DNA from: Spongiactinospora gelatinilytica
Lineage (GTDB): Bacteria; Actinomycetota; Actinomycetes; Streptosporangiales; Streptosporangiaceae
Reading direction: 5' to 3'
Length of the DNA stretch: 38,910 nucleotides
Assembly (NCBI RefSeq): GCF_003236385.1
Contig: NZ_POUA01000024.1
Location: forward strand, 1-38,910
Position numbers and translations under genes: made by a program. Below are positions 1-36,973 of this stretch, piece after piece; within the stretch, counting starts at the first letter, position 1; every line of letters begins with the position of its first letter. Under the pieces are notes generated by a model. That model searched no databases. It was given only the letters and a program-made list of their open reading frames with translations, and was not told the origin of the DNA.

Positions 1-2817
1 TTCCACGGCACCCTCCGCCCCTACCAGGAACGCGGCCTGTCCTGGCTCTCCTTCCTCTCCACCCTCGGCCTCGGCGGCATCCTCGCGGACGACATGGGCC
101 TGGGTAAGTGCATCGCCCCCGACTCTCCGGTCTTCGTGAACGGCACACTGGTCGAGGCGGAGCGTGTCTGGGCGCGGTTCAGCGGCCCGACGACCTTCGA
201 CGGAGAGGGCGAATGGGCGGTTCCCAAAGCGCCGCTGATCACCAACTGCGTCGACGCCTCGGGCCGGATGGCCACCGCGGCGATCACCCGGCTGTACCGG
301 CAGCACGTCCGTGAACGGCTCCGGCGTGTCCGGCTGGACGACGGCAGCGAACTCACGATCACCGCACGGCACCGCCTCCTCGGCCTCGGCGGCTGGACCA
401 ACGACATCGCGCCGGGCGACCGGATCTGCGTACCGAGGCGTCTGAACTGGACGGGCGGCCCCGCAGACCCCGACCTCACCGTGCTGCTGGCCTGGCAGAT
501 CGCCGAGGGGCACGAGTCTCGGACCGGCGACCTGCGCATCTATCAGAAGGACCCCGCAGTCCTGCGATCGCTGCACGATCGCGTGTACGCCGTCGGCGAG
601 CGCTTCGGCTTGGCGGTCAACACGCCCACTGTGCGCCGCGACAGAAACGTCCACGTGTTGCGGATGTGCAGCGCGGACTACGCGAGGTTCCTCGCTCGAC
701 ACGGTTACCGGTGGGGACAGCGGTCCGCCGGAAAGCGGATCCCCGACCTGATCATGTCGGCCGACGACCTAACGGTCCGTACCTTCCTGCGGGAGTACTT
801 CTCGGCCGAGGGAAGCGTGCTCGGTGGCATGCGGGTGATCGAGATCGGTTCCGCGTCGCCCTGGCTCATGGCGCAGCTCGCCACACTGCTGCGCCGTTTC
901 GGCATCTGGCTCCACAGCACCGAGAAGATGAAGCACGCCACCAACGGCACCGGCATCAGGCACCCCTACCGCATAGGCGTCATCGGCGGGCCGGCGCTGC
1001 GCGCGTTCCGCGACCTCATCGGTTTCGCCGACCCCGTCAAGCAGGCCAAACTCGACGCGCTCTGCGCGAAGCCCGCCTACAGCAACGTCGAGGGCGTTCC
1101 CGGTTCCGATCTGCTGTCGGCCGCGTACTCGCTCACCGGCCTCCCGCAACGGCACTTCGGCGTCGGAACCGTCTATTTCTCCGGCTCTCAGGAATTGTCC
1201 CCCGCCACCGCGACCGTCGCCGCCATGGACGGCATGCTGTCCGGCGAATCGGAACGCGGCTACCGAGCACGGCCCCGTACCAAGTGGACCGAGGCGGTGT
1301 GCGCCGCCTACGCGCCCCTGGACCGCCCGGCCCTGTCGGCGATCCGCGACGAACTGGCCCGCCGTGCCTCACAGGAGGTGTTCTACGCGCGCGTCGTCTC
1401 GGTCGAGGAGATCGACTATGAGGGCCACGTCTACGACTTCGAGGTGGCGGGCGAGCACAACTTCGTGGCGGGCGGCATGCTCTGCCACAACACCGCGCAG
1501 ACCCTGTCGCTCCTGCTCAACGAGCGGGCCGAAGGAGCCGTGGCGCCGACGTTGTTGGTGTGTCCGATGTCGGTGGTGACGAACTGGCACAAGGAGGCCG
1601 GGCGGTTCGCGCCGTCGTTGCGGGTGTACGTGCATCACGGGGGGAGCAGGAAGCGGGCGGAGGAGCTGGACGAGGCGGTGGCGGGGGCGGATTTGGTGAT
1701 CACGACGTACGGGACGGCGTGGCGGGACCTTGAGGCGTTGCGGGCCTTCGCGTGGGGGCGGGTGGTCTGTGACGAGGCGCAGGCGATCAAGAACAGCGCG
1801 GCGCGGCAGGCGCAGGCCGTACGTTCGCTGCCGGCCAGGACGCGGCTGGCGCTGACCGGCACGCCGGTGGAGAACCACCTGGCGGAGTTGTGGTCGATCA
1901 TGGAGTTCTGCAACCCCGGGCTGCTCGGCCCGGCGCGGCGGTTCAAGCAGCGTTATCAGGAGCCGATCGAGGCGCGCAACGACGAGGACGCGGCCAGGGC
2001 GCTGAAGCGGGCGACCTCCCCGTTCGTGCTCAGACGGCTGAAGACCGACCGGACGATCATCACCGACCTGCCGGACAAGCAGGAGATGAGGGTCTGGTGC
2101 ACGCTGACGCCCGAGCAGGCCAGCCTGTACCAGGCGGTGCTCGGCGACATGATGGCGAAGATCGACCAGAGCGAGGGCATCGAGCGGCGCGGCAACGTGC
2201 TGGCCACGATGACCCGGCTCAAGCAGGTCTGCAACCATCCGGCGCACCTGCTGAAGGACGGCTCGCGGCTGGCCGGGCGGTCGGGGAAGCTGGCCCGGCT
2301 GGAGGAGCTGGCCGCGGAGATCGTCGAGGAGGGTGACAAGGCGCTGGTGTTCACCCAGTACGCCGAGTGGGGGTCGCTGCTCCAGCCGTACCTCGCGGCG
2401 CACCTGGACCGCCCGGTGCTGTGGCTGCACGGCGGGCTGCCCAAGAAGAAGCGCGACGAGCTGGTGGAGCGGTTCCAGACCGACGAGGAGCCGATGCTGT
2501 TCCTGCTGTCGCTGAAGGCGGCGGGCACCGGCCTGAACCTCACGGCGGCCAGTCATGTCATCCATGTGGACCGCTGGTGGAATCCGGCGGTTGAGGACCA
2601 GGCCACCGACCGGGCCTTCCGGATCGGGCAGACGAAGAACGTCCAGGTGCGCAAGTTCGTGTGCGCGGGCACCCTGGAGGAGCGGATCGACGAGATGATC
2701 GAGCGGAAGAAGGCGCTGGCCGAGCGGGTGGTGGGCACCGGCGAGGAGTGGATCTCGGAGCTGTCCACCGATCAGTTGCGCGAGCTGTTCGCGCTGGGTC
2801 CCGAGGCGGTGAGCTGA
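1..2817 (+). CDS. SNF2-family DEAD/DEAH-box helicase, intein-containing, 5' partial
   Basis: ATP-dependent DNA translocase of the SWI2/SNF2 superfamily. The reading frame is open from base 1, so the N-terminus lies outside the window. Walker A reads DDMGLGK, is interrupted by an intein (109-1491), and resumes as TAQTL. After the intein come motif II (CDEAQAIKN), motif III (LTGTPVENHLAELWSI), and helicase lobe 2 with motif V (KAAGTGLNLTAA) and motif VI (DQATDRAFRIGQTKNVQ). The C-extein is about 441 residues, the usual size for both helicase lobes. The stop is 1 nt from the GTG of the SWIM zinc-finger gene, so the two are probably one operon. This pairing is common in actinobacteria and suggests a chromatin or DNA-remodelling complex. 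Activity requires intein removal, because the P-loop Lys and Thr are separated until splicing. Codon style shifts towards G/T-ending codons shortly after the intein. Confidence 0.93.
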   Translation, partial: FHGTLRPYQERGLSWLSFLSTLGLGGILADDMGLGKCIAPDSPVFVNGTLVEAERVWARFSGPTTFDGEGEWAVPKAPLITNCVDASGRMATAAITRLYRQHVRERLRRVRLDDGSELTITARHRLLGLGGWTNDIAPGDRICVPRRLNWTGGPADPDLTVLLAWQIAEGHESRTGDLRIYQKDPAVLRSLHDRVYAVGERFGLAVNTPTVRRDRNVHVLRMCSADYARFLARHGYRWGQRSAGKRIPDLIMSADDLTVRTFLREYFSAEGSVLGGMRVIEIGSASPWLMAQLATLLRRFGIWLHSTEKMKHATNGTGIRHPYRIGVIGGPALRAFRDLIGFADPVKQAKLDALCAKPAYSNVEGVPGSDLLSAAYSLTGLPQRHFGVGTVYFSGSQELSPATATVAAMDGMLSGESERGYRARPRTKWTEAVCAAYAPLDRPALSAIRDELARRASQEVFYARVVSVEEIDYEGHVYDFEVAGEHNFVAGGMLCHNTAQTLSLLLNERAEGAVAPTLLVCPMSVVTNWHKEAGRFAPSLRVYVHHGGSRKRAEELDEAVAGADLVITTYGTAWRDLEALRAFAWGRVVCDEAQAIKNSAARQAQAVRSLPARTRLALTGTPVENHLAELWSIMEFCNPGLLGPARRFKQRYQEPIEARNDEDAARALKRATSPFVLRRLKTDRTIITDLPDKQEMRVWCTLTPEQASLYQAVLGDMMAKIDQSEGIERRGNVLATMTRLKQVCNHPAHLLKDGSRLAGRSGKLARLEELAAEIVEEGDKALVFTQYAEWGSLLQPYLAAHLDRPVLWLHGGLPKKKRDELVERFQTDEEPMLFLLSLKAAGTGLNLTAASHVIHVDRWWNPAVEDQATDRAFRIGQTKNVQVRKFVCAGTLEERIDEMIERKKALAERVVGTGEEWISELSTDQLRELFALGPEAVS
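109..1491 (+). other. In-frame intein (461 aa) with LAGLIDADG homing endonuclease, inserted in Walker A of SNF2 helicase
   Basis: The intein begins with Cys1 (CIAPDSPVFVNG) directly after the P-loop Lys and ends GGMLCHN before Thr+1 of the extein. All class 1 splicing landmarks are visible: Cys1 in block A, TxxH in block B (TITARH, near intein residues 83-88), block F (VYDFEVAGEHNFVAGG), the penultimate His and the terminal Asn. Two LAGLIDADG-like helices, LLAWQIAEGH (about 126-135) and FLREYFSAEG (about 226-235), each keep an acidic residue near the end, so the homing endonuclease may be active. The frame is unbroken, so splicing and homing competence are likely but unproven. P-loops are classic intein targets because the DNA site is constrained. 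Confidence 0.95.
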
Positions 2818-2818
2818 G

Positions 2819-3628
2819 GTGCCGATGGGGCCCGAGGGGTGGTACGAGGCGACCGCGCCGATCCGGGTGGAGGGCGGCATCCGGGCGCGCAGCAAGCGCG
2901 GGTCGATCGGCGCGCAGTGGTGGTCGCGCCGGTTCATCGACATTCTGGAGGACATCTGCGATCCGGGGCGGCTGACCCGTGGCCGGTCCTATGCCCGCAA
3001 GGGCCAGGTGATCTCGCTGGACCTGCTGCCGGGCGAGGTGCGGGCGAGCGTGCAGGGGTCGCGGCCGGAGCCGTACGACGTGGTGGTGGAGATCGAGGCG
3101 TACGACGAGGCGATGTGGGCCGACGTCGAGCGGGCCCTCGCCGGGCAGGCGCTGTACCGGGCCAAGCTGCTGGCCGGGGAGATGCCGGCGGAGATCGAGG
3201 AGGTCTTCGACTCCCTCGACCTGCGGCTGTTCCCGAACGAGCTGGAGATGGAGTGCTCCTGCCCGGACTGGGGGATTCCGTGCAAACATCTGTCGGCGGT
3301 GCTGTACCTGCTGGCCGAGGCGTTCGACGACGATCCGTTCCTGGTGCTGGCCTGGCGCGGCCGGGCGCGCGATGACCTGCTGGGCGCGCTGCGCGGGCAG
3401 GCGGAGGAGGAGGCCGCCGATCCGCTGCACGTGCCGGACGAACCGCTGGCCGAGCGATTGGGCGACTTCTACTCCCCGGCGGTGCCGCTGGGCCGGCTGC
3501 GCCCCCGCCCGGCCACGACGGCGTCGCCCGACATCCTGCTGCGCGCGCTGGAGCCGCCGCAGGTGCGGGTGCGGCACATTCCGCTGCTGGACATCCTGCG
3601 CCCGGTCTACCGCGGGTTCGCCGACTAA
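2819..3628 (+). CDS. SWIM zinc-finger protein, SNF2 partner
   Basis: This 269-aa protein carries a SWIM zinc-binding motif of the form CxCx6CxH (CSCPDWGIPCKH, around residues 142-153), expected to bind DNA or a protein partner. The N-terminal half (WWSRRFIDILEDI, then GRSYARKGQV) is typical of the SWIM proteins found next to SNF2 helicases in actinobacteria. The start is GTG 1 nt after the helicase stop; an ATG two codons later is an alternative. The pair is almost certainly translated from one message. The 3' end overlaps the convergent response regulator gene by 4 bp. The enzymatic role is unknown, and a function in helicase targeting is inference. Confidence 0.88.
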   Translation: MPMGPEGWYEATAPIRVEGGIRARSKRGSIGAQWWSRRFIDILEDICDPGRLTRGRSYARKGQVISLDLLPGEVRASVQGSRPEPYDVVVEIEAYDEAMWADVERALAGQALYRAKLLAGEMPAEIEEVFDSLDLRLFPNELEMECSCPDWGIPCKHLSAVLYLLAEAFDDDPFLVLAWRGRARDDLLGALRGQAEEEAADPLHVPDEPLAERLGDFYSPAVPLGRLRPRPATTASPDILLRALEPPQVRVRHIPLLDILRPVYRGFAD

Positions 3629-4275
3629 CCACGCAGGTACGCGAGCACGGCGAGCACCCGGCGGTGGTCGTCCGCGGCCGGGGGCAGGTCGAGTTTGGCC
3701 AGGATGCCCGCGATGTGCTTGGAGACGGCCGCCTCGGTGACCACGAGGGTGCGGGCGATGGCGGCGTTGGAGCGTCCTTCGGCGACCAGGCCGAGCACTT
3801 CGCGTTCGCGGGGGGTGAGCCGGGCCAGCGGGTCGCGGCGGCGGCCGAGCAGTTGCCTGACCACCTCGGGATCGACGACGGTGTGGCCGGCGGCGACCCG
3901 TTCCACCGCCCCGGCGAACTCCGAGACGTCGCCGACGCGGTCTTTCAGCAGGTAGCCGATGCCGCCGCTGCCGCCGCCGTCGAGGAGTTCGGCGGCGTAG
4001 GTCTGCTCGACGTACTGGCTGAGCACGAGCACGGCGAGGCCGGGCCGTTCGGCACGCAGCGCGAGGGCGGCGCGCAGACCCTCGTCGGAGTAGCCGGGCG
4101 GCATGCGGACGTCGGCCACCACGATGTCGGGCTCGTGTTCGCGTACGGCGGTGATGAGCGCCTCGGCGTCGCCGATCGAGGCGACGACCTGGTGGCCGAA
4201 CCGGTCGAGCAGCCCGACCAGGCCCTCGCGCAGCAGTACGGCGTCTTCGGCGAGAACTATTCGCAGCCCGGGCAC
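3625..4275 (-). CDS. Two-component response regulator, NarL/LuxR family
   Basis: This 216-aa DNA-binding response regulator has a receiver domain (acidic pocket E10/D11, phospho-acceptor Asp55 in VVADVRMP, conserved Lys in YLLKDR) and a C-terminal LuxR-type helix-turn-helix (LTPREREVLGLVAEG, then EAAVSKHIAGILAKL). The GTG start lies inside the end of the kinase gene (19-bp overlap), so the pair is translationally coupled. The kinase of this type phosphorylates the regulator, which probably controls the divergent ABC transporter at 5576-8582. The target is inferred from position only. Confidence 0.93.
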   Translation of the reverse strand: MPGLRIVLAEDAVLLREGLVGLLDRFGHQVVASIGDAEALITAVREHEPDIVVADVRMPPGYSDEGLRAALALRAERPGLAVLVLSQYVEQTYAAELLDGGGSGGIGYLLKDRVGDVSEFAGAVERVAAGHTVVDPEVVRQLLGRRRDPLARLTPREREVLGLVAEGRSNAAIARTLVVTEAAVSKHIAGILAKLDLPPAADDHRRVLAVLAYLRG

Positions 4276-5465
4276 GGAATCTCCACGCGCAGTGAGGTCG
4301 GCCCGCCGCGCGGGCTGGACAGGGTCATGACGCCGTCGGCCACCGCGACGCGGTCGGCCAGCCCGGCGAGGCCGGACCCGGCCTCGGGGTCGGCCCCGCC
4401 CACGCCGTCGTCGCAGATCTCCATGGTCAGGGCGCCGTCGCGCAGCCGGCCGTGGACCAGGCCGCGCCGGGCCCCGCTGTGCTTGGCGAGGTTGGCCATG
4501 GCCTCGGAGACGACGTAGTAGGCGGTGACCTCGGCCAGGGGCGGCAGCCGGCCGGGAAGGTCCACATCGACGTCCACGGGGACGGGCGAGCGTCCGGCCA
4601 CGTCGAGTACGGCGGCGCGCAGCCCGCGGTCGGTGAGGACCTTGGGATGGACGCCGCGGATCAGTTCGCGCAGCTCGGCGAGGGCGCGTTTGGCCTCCTC
4701 GTGGGCCTCGGCGACCTGGGCTTCGGCCGGCGAGCCCGGCGGCAGGTCCAGCCGGGCCAGGCCGAGCCGCATGCTGAGCGCGACCAGTCGTTGCTGGGCG
4801 CCGTCGTGCAGGTCGCGTTCGATCCTGCGGCGTTCGGCCTCGAAGGCGTCCACGAGCCTGGCGCGGGAGCGGATGACCTCGGCGTCGCCGGGGGCGAGGA
4901 CCGCGCGGGTCATCAGCGCCCGCGCGCCCGCCCACGCGGCGATCGGGTACGCCGACAGCGGGATCATCAGCAGCCCGCCGAGGGCCACCAGGTAACTCGT
5001 GGGGGCCTCGCCGCTCGGCTGGAGCGGCGCGGACATCAGCAGCAGCGGCACCCAGGTGGCGAGCCCGACGAAGCCGAGGTCGATCCACCACAGCGCGAGC
5101 AGCGCCAGCATGGTGAAGCCGAGATCGCGCCAGGTCGCCGGGTCGCGCAGCCGGGTGGCGAACCAGGCGCGCGGGCCGCGCCGGGGCGGCTCCCGGCGCG
5201 GGTCGGCGGCGGGGGCGAGATCGACCAGCCGCAGCCGCCGCCGTTCCAGCCGGGCCGCCGGGAGGCCGAGCAGGGCCACGGCCAGCACCGCCGCGCCGCA
5301 GGCGAGCGGGACGCCGAACCGGTACGCGATCATGATCACGCCCGTAACGACCACCGCGAAGACCCCGCTGACCAGCAGGTAGGCCAGCGACCGCCACGGC
5401 CACGACGACCGCAGGAAGGCCGACGGCCTGCGGGTCAGCGCGGAAAGGGAGGTACGGGGTGGCAC
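4257..5465 (-). CDS. Sensor histidine kinase, HisKA_3/HATPase type
   Basis: This is a membrane-bound kinase of about 402 aa. Its N-terminal half has four or so hydrophobic segments (about residues 28-70 and 115-185). A HisKA_3 dimerisation region follows, with phospho-acceptor His220 in ERDLHDGAQQR. The ATPase domain has an N box (YYVVSEAMANLAKHSG) and a G box (CDDGVGGADPEAGSGLAGL). The GTG start (VPPRTSLSAL) is preferred because residues upstream look non-coding; no strong ribosome binding site is visible. The gene overlaps the response regulator by 19 bp. NarL-type pairs divergent from FtsX-like ABC exporters often sense envelope or antibiotic stress, which is inference here. Confidence 0.9.
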   Translation of the reverse strand: MPPRTSLSALTRRPSAFLRSSWPWRSLAYLLVSGVFAVVVTGVIMIAYRFGVPLACGAAVLAVALLGLPAARLERRRLRLVDLAPAADPRREPPRRGPRAWFATRLRDPATWRDLGFTMLALLALWWIDLGFVGLATWVPLLLMSAPLQPSGEAPTSYLVALGGLLMIPLSAYPIAAWAGARALMTRAVLAPGDAEVIRSRARLVDAFEAERRRIERDLHDGAQQRLVALSMRLGLARLDLPPGSPAEAQVAEAHEEAKRALAELRELIRGVHPKVLTDRGLRAAVLDVAGRSPVPVDVDVDLPGRLPPLAEVTAYYVVSEAMANLAKHSGARRGLVHGRLRDGALTMEICDDGVGGADPEAGSGLAGLADRVAVADGVMTLSSPRGGPTSLRVEIPCPGCE

Positions 5466-5575
5466 GCACTCGACGGTAGCCGACCGTGCCGGGTGCGGCA
5501 GTAGTGCTGGGTATAGCCCCGATCCTCGTTCCAGCGCCAATGTGCCGGCGCGGCGTGGCCGGTTGGCTTGGCCGC

Positions 5576-6322
5576 ATGGATGTCAAAGAGACCGTCCGGC
5601 TGTGGTCGGTACGCAGGCTGTACGGCACCGCCGACCGGACCGTGAGAGCGCTCGACGGCGTGACCGCGTCCTTCCACCCGGGCACGCTGACGGCGGTGAT
5701 GGGGCCGTCGGGGTCGGGCAAGTCCACGTTGCTGCACTGCGCGGCGGGCCTGGACCGCCCCACTGAGGGGAAGGTCGTCATCGACGGGACCGATCTGGGG
5801 GAACTCGACGAGACCGGGCTGACCCTGCTGCGGCGTGAGCGGGTGGGGTTCGTGTTCCAGGCGTTCAACCTGGTGTCGGCGCTGACCGCCGAGCAGAACG
5901 TGGCGCTGCCGCTGAAGCTGGCCGGGCGGCCGATCGCCCCGGCGGAGGCACGGGCCGCGCTGGCCGAGGTCGGGCTGGCCGAACGGGCGGGGCACCGGCC
6001 GAGCGGGCTTTCCGGCGGGGAGCAGCAGCGGGTGGCGATCGCCCGGGCCTTGATCACCAGGCCGGCGGTGCTGTTCGCCGACGAGCCGACCGGGCAGTTG
6101 GACACCAAGACCTCCAGGCAGGTGCTGGGCATGCTGCGCGACCTGGTGGACAACCAGGCGCAGACGGTGATCATGGTGACGCACGACCCGGTGACCGCCT
6201 CCTACGCCGACCGGGTGCTCTTCCTGGCCGACGGGCGGTTGGTGGACGAGTTCACCACCGGTGTCACGGCCGAGGCGGTGGCGGCGCGGATGGCGAACCT
6301 CGAGGCGGTGGCCTCGTGCTGA
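5576..6322 (+). CDS. ABC transporter ATP-binding protein, MacB/LolD type
   Basis: This 248-aa ATPase has Walker A (GPSGSGKST), a Q-loop (FVFQAFNLV), the signature LSGGEQQR, Walker B (VLFADEPT) and an H-loop His (VTHD), all intact. The order and spacing are those of MacB/LolD/FtsE-like ATPases that drive FtsX-type permeases in mechanotransmission rather than transport through a channel. The ATG at MDVKETVRLW was chosen because the frame upstream looks non-coding; no clear Shine-Dalgarno is seen, so it may be leaderless. The stop overlaps the GTG of the permease gene by 7 bp. It is divergent from the kinase/regulator pair with about 110 bp between. Confidence 0.93.
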   Translation: MDVKETVRLWSVRRLYGTADRTVRALDGVTASFHPGTLTAVMGPSGSGKSTLLHCAAGLDRPTEGKVVIDGTDLGELDETGLTLLRRERVGFVFQAFNLVSALTAEQNVALPLKLAGRPIAPAEARAALAEVGLAERAGHRPSGLSGGEQQRVAIARALITRPAVLFADEPTGQLDTKTSRQVLGMLRDLVDNQAQTVIMVTHDPVTASYADRVLFLADGRLVDEFTTGVTAEAVAARMANLEAVASC

Positions 6323-35884: not shown

Positions 35885-36973
35885 ATGACGGAGAACACCG
35901 TGCCCCTGTGCGGGCTGCCCCCCGCCCCGCCGCGCATCCTCCCCGAAGGGCTGTCCAGGAACCGGCTGGACGCGATCATCGAACTAGGCGACAAGTGGGT
36001 GAACGGCACCACCCTGCGCTACTACTTCTTCGACGCCGAGACCGACGGCTCCAAGGTCGTGCTGCCCGATGGCAGCGTCGAGTTCGTCACCTGGGCCGGC
36101 GCCCAGGAACAGCAGGACGCCGTGCGCCGGAGCTTCGCCGAGTGGAAGGCGCTCGGCATCGGCCTGAACTTCACCGAGGTCCGCGACCGCAACGAGGCCG
36201 AGGTACGGATCGGCTTCATGCGGGGCGACGGTTCGTGGTCCTATGTAGGGCGCGACGTGCTCGGCATCGGGACCGGCGAGCGCACGATGAACTTCGGTTG
36301 GGATCTGACCGCGCCGAGGGCGCGGCAGACCGCGCTGCACGAGATCGGGCACACGCTGGGCATGATGCACGAGCACCAGAACCCGTTCGCCGGAATCGTG
36401 TGGGACGAGGAGGCCGTCTACGCTGAGCTGGCCGGGGCGCCCAACTTCTGGGACAGGGAGACGACGTTCCACAACATCATCCGCAAGCTGGACCGGGTGG
36501 CCGGTTCGGTGTGGGACGCCAAGTCGGTGATGCACTACCCGTTCCGGCCGGGGCTGATCGTCTCTCCGCCGGAGTTCGGCACCTCGGGCATCAACCCGCC
36601 GGGCACGATCTCCGACCTCGACGCGGCCTACATCCGCGAGTGGTACCCGCCGCTCGACCCGAGCGACGCGCCGACGCTCAAGCCGTTCGAGTCCCGCCCG
36701 CTGGCCCTGCGGCCGGGCGAGCAGGCGGACTTCCTGATCGAGCCGGACGCGAGCCGGGAGTACACCGTGCGGGCCTTCGGACCCGCCGACATGGTGACGG
36801 TGCTGTTCGAGGACGTGGAGGGCGACCTGCGGTACCTGGCGGGCGACGACGACGCGGGCCAGGCGCGCAACGCCGAGCTGAGGGTGCGGCTGTTCAAGGG
36901 GCGCCGTTACGTGCTGCGGGCCCGCCTCTACACCTCGTGGGAGTCGAACCAGACGGCGGTCATGTATTGGTAG
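35885..36973 (+). CDS. Astacin-like (M12A) zinc metalloprotease
   Basis: This 362-aa protein has the extended zinc motif HEIGHTLGMMHEHQNP (His152, Glu153, His156, His162) and the Met-turn with its Tyr ligand in SVMHYPF, diagnostic of astacins. Residues 260-362 form a beta-rich C-terminal domain (FLIEPDASREYTVRAFG), similar to prepeptidase-C-terminal folds. No signal peptide is visible from the ATG used, which has AGGAGG 5 nt upstream. A secreted role would then need another route; an intracellular protease is the alternative. Confidence 0.9.
   Translation: MTENTVPLCGLPPAPPRILPEGLSRNRLDAIIELGDKWVNGTTLRYYFFDAETDGSKVVLPDGSVEFVTWAGAQEQQDAVRRSFAEWKALGIGLNFTEVRDRNEAEVRIGFMRGDGSWSYVGRDVLGIGTGERTMNFGWDLTAPRARQTALHEIGHTLGMMHEHQNPFAGIVWDEEAVYAELAGAPNFWDRETTFHNIIRKLDRVAGSVWDAKSVMHYPFRPGLIVSPPEFGTSGINPPGTISDLDAAYIREWYPPLDPSDAPTLKPFESRPLALRPGEQADFLIEPDASREYTVRAFGPADMVTVLFEDVEGDLRYLAGDDDAGQARNAELRVRLFKGRRYVLRARLYTSWESNQTAVMYW

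Follow-up and report, generated by a model that had tools for sequence, protein, structure and literature searches.

The window considered here, the whole 38,910-nt stretch of Spongiactinospora gelatinilytica DNA (contig C166 of an 8.05-Mb genome in 957 contigs, family Streptosporangiaceae), opens within a gene for an SNF2 helicase whose ATP-binding P-loop is interrupted by an intein. We conclude, with a probability of about 0.93, that this element is an intact selfish mobile intein. The evidence comes from the anatomy of the insert, the uninterrupted sites of relatives, the patchy distribution of the intein family, the conservation of its homing endonuclease and several signs of lateral movement.

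Anatomy of the intein

The insert occupies 461 stop-free codons (nucleotides 109–1491, frame 1 of the + strand) between Lys36 and the following Thr of an SNF2 open reading frame (ORF) that spans bases 1–2817 and comprises the end of the N-extein, the 461-amino-acid (aa) insert and the C-extein. In the frame 1 translation the insertion point is Lys^Thr of Walker A (GLGK^T): the N-extein ends in GGILADDMGLGK, the insert runs from CIAPDSPVFVNG to GGMLCHN, and the C-extein resumes with TAQTLSLL. The sequence-only reading had given these coordinates and this position in Walker A, and both proved correct to the base. Over the whole ORF Pfam recognized SNF2-rel_dom (1.1e-65) and Helicase_C (1.4e-20). 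On the insert itself Pfam Intein_splicing (1.2e-17, 64.6 bits, cutoff 35.8) and NCBIfam TIGR01443 intein_Cterm (19.7, cutoff 15.6) scored above their cutoffs, and Pfam LAGLIDADG_3 matched aa 223–305 (5.7e-11, 43 bits, cutoff 22.5), covering the second motif only. The top matches of a PDB sequence search with the insert were the PI-PkoII and Pho RadA inteins.

All the splicing residues that the earlier reading had listed were found by translation and profile search: Cys1, block B (T85-A-R-H88), block F (VYDFEVAGEHNFVA), the terminal H460-N461 and Thr+1. Class 3 inteins have no nucleophile at position 1 and carry a Cys in block F; that assignment was rejected, as the insert has Cys1 and its block F is without Cys. 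A class 1 intein is defined by a nucleophile at position 1 (PMC5790916; published sources are cited here and below from excerpts), and the insert has Cys1, the TxxH of block B, blocks F and G reading VYDFEVAGEHNFVA...CHN^T, a nucleophile at +1 and an in-frame insertion at a conserved site for which relatives with an empty site exist. Predicted from these motifs, it is a complete, full-length class 1 intein.

Conservation was judged in a family set of 66 sequences, made up of the window and the SNF2 K^T inteins of the named-genome and viral scans described below; loci from the protein search of the wider order were not added. Two loci cut by contig ends (L110, L123), one with a broken frame (L118), one identical duplicate and 16 loci that hold other inteins (L126, L133, L136–L147, L151, L152) were left out. 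Cys1 is present in 66/66, and the extraction pattern had excluded only Thr or Ser at this position and did not require Cys. H88, H460 and N461 are likewise present in all 66 and T85 in 65. This uniformity of Cys1, the block B His and the terminal His-Asn argues against an ordinary lineage-specific domain insertion. A related concern is that the insert could stem from a chimeric assembly near the end of the contig, as the window begins only 108 nt before it and parts of the host gene lie on two contigs, C228 and C166. The same insert with the same junctions is found in two congeners, well inside their contigs, and in many other genera; a chimera was rejected on the identical junctions in the two congeners, and we discount both of these accounts almost entirely.

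An AlphaFold2 model of the intein built from 11 sequences had a mean predicted local distance difference test score (pLDDT) of 76.2 and a predicted template modelling (TM) score of 0.77. The top Foldseek matches to this model were solved inteins that carry an endonuclease, TliVMA (2.2e-22), PI-PfuI (6.2e-17) and PI-PkoII (6.2e-16), and I-DmoI was among the next matches after these bifunctional inteins. The three resemble the window intein in their fold, with the same splicing-plus-endonuclease architecture (TM score to query 0.54–0.59), but they reside in other host proteins and are only 15–19% identical to it over long, gappy alignments.

Empty sites and distribution

Continuous alignment of intein-free relatives across GK/T had been set beforehand as a test of the intein claim, and 26 of the 27 intein-free helicase loci read LADDMGLGK[T/S] without a break, with T in 24 and S in 2; the 27th (L044) gave no pattern match. 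The C-exteins of these relatives are 64–88% identical to that of the window, and at the DNA level 46–66 of 72 bp around the site are identical to the window flanks (11 of 12 loci, L047 being left out).

A protein search (E up to 1e-20) found relatives of the intein in 25 of the 345 species of the order, belonging to 6 of its 70 genera, and in 3/3 species of Spongiactinospora. This search replaced a strict DNA pattern that had given 11/345 (0 with the reversed-pattern control), a figure that was too low because the pattern misses hosts reading SMGLGK or MMGLGK. Among the 25, 19 inteins are full length (461–466 aa) and four shortened (376–433 aa); the last two are a mini-intein of 169 aa that lacks the endonuclease and an intein whose frame is broken. 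A scan of named genomes yielded 136 relatives, and among the 80 best, which were analysed further, 66 carry an SNF2 intein at this insertion point. Both junctions could be read in frame in 63 of these; contig ends truncate L110 and L123, and the frame of L118 is broken. Hosts of this set include Sphaerisporangium, Microbispora, Microtetraspora, Asanoa, Actinoallomurus, Actinomadura and many cyanobacteria, together with one Anaerolineales metagenome-assembled genome (MAG; Chloroflexota) and one Chloracidobacterium MAG (Acidobacteriota). A viral scan added three SNF2 K^T inteins among five loci, 58, 58 and 50% identical, on putatively viral contigs of 4–5 kb.

The remaining 14 of the best 80 loci lie in different host proteins, judged by eye from their flanks. 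Five of these 14, distant relatives with a visible N-junction (L126, L136, L137, L141, L144), are likewise inserted immediately behind a GK resembling that of a P-loop (GTGK^S, GHVDHGK^T, GGVGK^T). The SNF2 site also holds mini- or reduced inteins of 169–279 aa in an actinomycete, Calothrix, Richelia and Anabaena (L060/L125, L127–L132, L135), a set that lends itself to tracing how the endonuclease is lost.

State of the endonuclease

The earlier statement that both LAGLIDADG helices keep acidic residues was borne out, the residues being E133 and E234. Each is present in 22/22 of the actinomycete-type rows that have the region; in the remaining rows E133 is found in 34/38 and E234 in 35/36. The ratio of non-synonymous to synonymous divergence (dN/dS) in the endonuclease region was 0.205 and 0.238 in the two pairs formed by the window and its congeners (0.134–0.334 over nine pairs), next to 0.158 and 0.263 in the splicing region of the same two pairs. 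The endonuclease is thus probably alive, as predicted from these residues and ratios.

One alternative is that the endonuclease has already lost its activity, leaving a passenger that is inherited vertically and only splices. Shrunken endonucleases are known in the family, and the residue after the second acid varies (G, S, A, C, V) in actinomycete-type rows, both of which would fit this view. The retention of both acids in every actinomycete-type row and the purifying selection on the endonuclease, at a level next to that on the splicing region, speak against it, as do the divergence data given below, and we regard it as unlikely.

Signs of lateral movement

Between the window and S. rosea the C-extein is 99% and the intein 92% identical; between the window and Spongiactinospora sp. 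TRM90649 the figures are 93% and 72%. Synonymous divergence (dS), computed for nine pairs of which four were bootstrapped, shows the same direction. For the window and S. rosea it was 0.208 in the intein versus 0.091 in the C-extein (95% bootstrap interval of the difference 0.052–0.182), and for the window and TRM90649 0.723 versus 0.340 (0.228–0.557); this excess over the host gene in both window–congener pairs is the further point against a vertically inherited passenger. An Asanoa pair gave 1.070 versus 0.398 (0.440–0.967), and in a Microbispora pair the two were equal (0.228 and 0.223). The dS of the SWIM gene that lies downstream of the helicase resembles that of the extein (0.114 with S. 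rosea, 0.373 with TRM90649).

Intein and host also part company over longer distances. The intein of the Anaerolineales MAG is 51% identical to that of the window and its extein only 34%, and the Chloracidobacterium MAG has an intein 62% identical to that of Nostoc and 48% to that of the window, with an extein 57% identical to Nostoc's and 64% to the window's. Quick trees of chosen rows, with support from the Shimodaira–Hasegawa-like approximate likelihood ratio test only (46 inteins longer than 350 aa of 50 extracted; 62 exteins, 12 of them intein-free), agree with the host mismatch of both inteins. The patchy distribution, the excess synonymous divergence, the host mismatches, the conserved catalytic acids and the relatives with a reduced or lost endonuclease are together evidence for mobility, as read from sequence comparison.

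A number of observations weigh against an intact and mobile intein. NCBIfam TIGR01445 intein_Nterm reached only 18.0 bits on the insert, below its cutoff of 24.5, which is an annotation threshold and no functional requirement, and the AlphaFold2 model falls below a pLDDT of 50 at both splice junctions (residues 1–6 and 449–461). Constraint on the entire intein is weaker than on its host, with dN/dS of 0.188 and 0.270 versus 0.056 and 0.139 for the C-extein in the window–congener pairs. The two extein rows of Anaerolineales and IMGVR_150 are very long-branched, and the conflict between the trees over Chloracidobacterium hinges on them. The presence of the intein in all three Spongiactinospora species means that vertical inheritance within the genus may be possible, and would also suit a passenger that only splices. 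Finally, the excess intein dS may partly stem from weaker codon bias (G+C content at third codon positions, GC3, 0.883 versus 0.952); a pure codon-bias effect is disfavoured because the Microbispora pair has a larger GC3 gap but no dS excess.

Splicing, homing and the idea of a switch

With an intact selfish mobile intein as the favoured reading, its anatomy, the exact empty site, the patchy distribution of its family and the signs of lateral movement are observed, and we infer the splicing and cleavage steps as follows. On its motifs and the known class 1 pathway, the precursor would fold and Cys1 would attack the Lys-Cys peptide bond; Thr+1 would then take over the ester and Asn461 would cyclise, aided by His460, which would restore the GKT of the helicase P-loop. 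Before splicing the helicase would be unable to bind ATP normally, and that it stays inactive until spliced is a sound inference. For the RadA P-loop intein, disruption of ATPase function has been described (PMC6195587). The embedded LAGLIDADG endonuclease would cut intein-free alleles at the sequence coding for GK/T, and repair would copy the intein in; we propose this homing step because of the conserved acids, the purifying selection and the fold.

Another possibility, raised by the sequence-only reading, is that the intein has been domesticated as a regulatory switch, such that a signal, for example oxidation, delays or prevents splicing and active helicase is released only in suitable circumstances. 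Conditional splicing has been described for two P-loop inteins, the mycobacterial DnaBi1 in response to oxidation (PMC6195587) and RadA in response to temperature (PMC5790916). In the SNF2 K^T family the block G residue 459 (nt 1483–1485), just before the terminal His-Asn, is Cys in 65/66 members versus only 2/16 of the other inteins from the same scans (14 in hosts judged by eye to be non-SNF2 and two on viral contigs without an identified host). Within the order, both the mini-intein and the four shortened inteins retain their frame and splice ends, which would also fit a switch. Against this, presence in 25/345 species and the existence of intein-free relatives argue against a switch that is needed, and the endonuclease, with its acids conserved and under purifying selection, is in keeping with a selfish element. 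In TRM90649 residue 459 is Ala and the other motifs are intact, and C459 may have no more than a structural role, since 29 of the 151 splicing-region positions show this degree of conservation (65 or all of the 66 sequences). Domestication as a switch seems to us very unlikely.

A more specific form of this idea concerns the cysteines themselves. C107 is present in 58/66 and C319 in 58/62 family members, and C459 or C107 could conceivably pair with Cys1 in a reversible disulfide, so that oxidation would hold the helicase in an ATP-blind precursor, a redox brake on SNF2 remodelling common to many bacteria. We offer this as speculation, with slightly greater doubt still than attaches to a switch in general.

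Relation to known systems

The sequence-only reading had held that few SNF2 inteins are known. The frequency of relatives in the order and among the best named-genome loci does not bear this out, nor does the existing NCBIfam model NF058636, 'sll1366 family intein-prone helicase'; excerpts also report splicing of a Deinococcus radiodurans intein in an SNF2 helicase, Snf2 (PMC11219805, PMC3196547). The last position of NF058636 (589) falls on the GK before the insert, and full-length cyanobacterial relatives from the scan carry a 41–49% identical intein, mostly of 466–469 aa, at the same point. The model aligns to residues 1–36 of the window, 41–609 of S. rosea and 2–662 of Nostoc sp. NMS7, with scores of 54.9, 299.4 and 868.1 respectively against a cutoff of 550. 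As the window and S. rosea lie below this cutoff, the actinomycete helicase is a relative and no certified member. It differs also in that the best model for both is SCO1167/SCO6262, which with the intein inside scored 582.4 for the window and 692.9 for S. rosea, both below its cutoff of 1200.

The D. radiodurans intein shares the type of host protein and is described, in the excerpts, as class 3, whereas the window intein has Cys1 and fits class 1, a comparison made by description. The TerL1-a inteins of mycobacteriophages, set beside the window intein by description only, reside in a different host protein. K^T has been called a 'classic' P-loop insertion site in literature seen in excerpt, and Rad54/SWI-SNF2 appears among intein hosts in a review table (PMC5874633, in part). 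In the open-licence literature nothing was found that links inteins to sll1366 or to Spongiactinospora. The window intein is one more well-preserved example of a widespread and already recognised kind.

Host gene and neighbourhood

The features are collected in Table 1. In this assembly the host gene falls on two contigs: residues 1–124 of the 609-aa N-extein of S. rosea match the very end of C228 (9226–9609, 79% identity), and residues 574–609 the beginning of the window (C166). The stretch between them, some 449 of 609 residues judged by S. rosea, was not found anywhere in the assembly. In S. rosea the precursor is one uninterrupted 1513-aa open frame. A SWIM gene also adjoins the intein-bearing helicase gene in S. 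rosea and TRM90649, which suggests that the two genes may form one operon in Spongiactinospora.

Table 1. Features of the intein, its host gene and the adjoining SWIM gene, in window coordinates
Feature	Position	Strand	Basis
N-extein of SNF2 helicase, final 36 codons, up to Walker A ...DDMGLGK; preceding part missing at contig end	1..108	+	
Intein, predicted class 1, full length, 461 aa, Cys1–Asn461	109..1491	+	Pfam, NCBIfam, empty sites, 66-sequence family
Splicing domain, N-terminal part, aa 1–112 (approximate boundary)	109..444	+	Alignment A2; retained in mini-intein L060
Block B, T85-A-R-H88	361..372	+	Family conservation
LAGLIDADG homing endonuclease region, aa 113–322 (approximate boundary)	445..1074	+	Pfam LAGLIDADG_3; Foldseek matches (I-DmoI, endonucleases of inteins)
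First LAGLIDADG helix, LLAWQIAEGHE, catalytic-position acid E133	484..516	+	Translation, alignment
Second LAGLIDADG helix, FLREYFSAEGS, catalytic-position acid E234	784..816	+	Translation, alignment
Linker from endonuclease to C-terminal splicing region, about 100 aa, largely helical	1075..1374	+	AlphaFold2 secondary structure (partly low confidence); shorter in relative L059
C-terminal splicing region, blocks F and G, aa 423–461	1375..1491	+	Pfam, alignment
Block F, VYDFEVAGEHNFVA	1429..1470	+	Alignment
Block G end, C459-H460-N461	1483..1491	+	Family conservation
C-extein of SNF2 helicase, from Walker A Thr+1 onward	1492..2817	+	Pfam SNF2-rel_dom, Helicase_C
SWIM zinc-finger protein gene, starting 1 nt past the helicase stop	2819..3628	+	Pfam SWIM 1.1e-05

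Elsewhere in the window, genes for a LuxR-type response regulator (3628–4275, − strand) and a sensor histidine kinase (4260–5540, − strand) appear ordinary, with what looks like a small overlap between their frames. A longer open frame of 849 aa that lies over both (3625–6174, − strand) is probably an artefact of high G+C content. An open frame at 35885–36970 (+ strand) has an above-cutoff match to metallopeptidases of the astacin/matrixin type (3.4e-09, 4.6e-08).

Implications

Within one order this large allele family shows several stages of the homing cycle, namely full-length inteins, inteins with a reduced endonuclease, a mini-intein and the empty site, and it makes a good set for the study of how inteins spread across phyla. 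Were it true that the conserved Cys controls splicing, the family would represent a widespread post-translational switch on a helicase.

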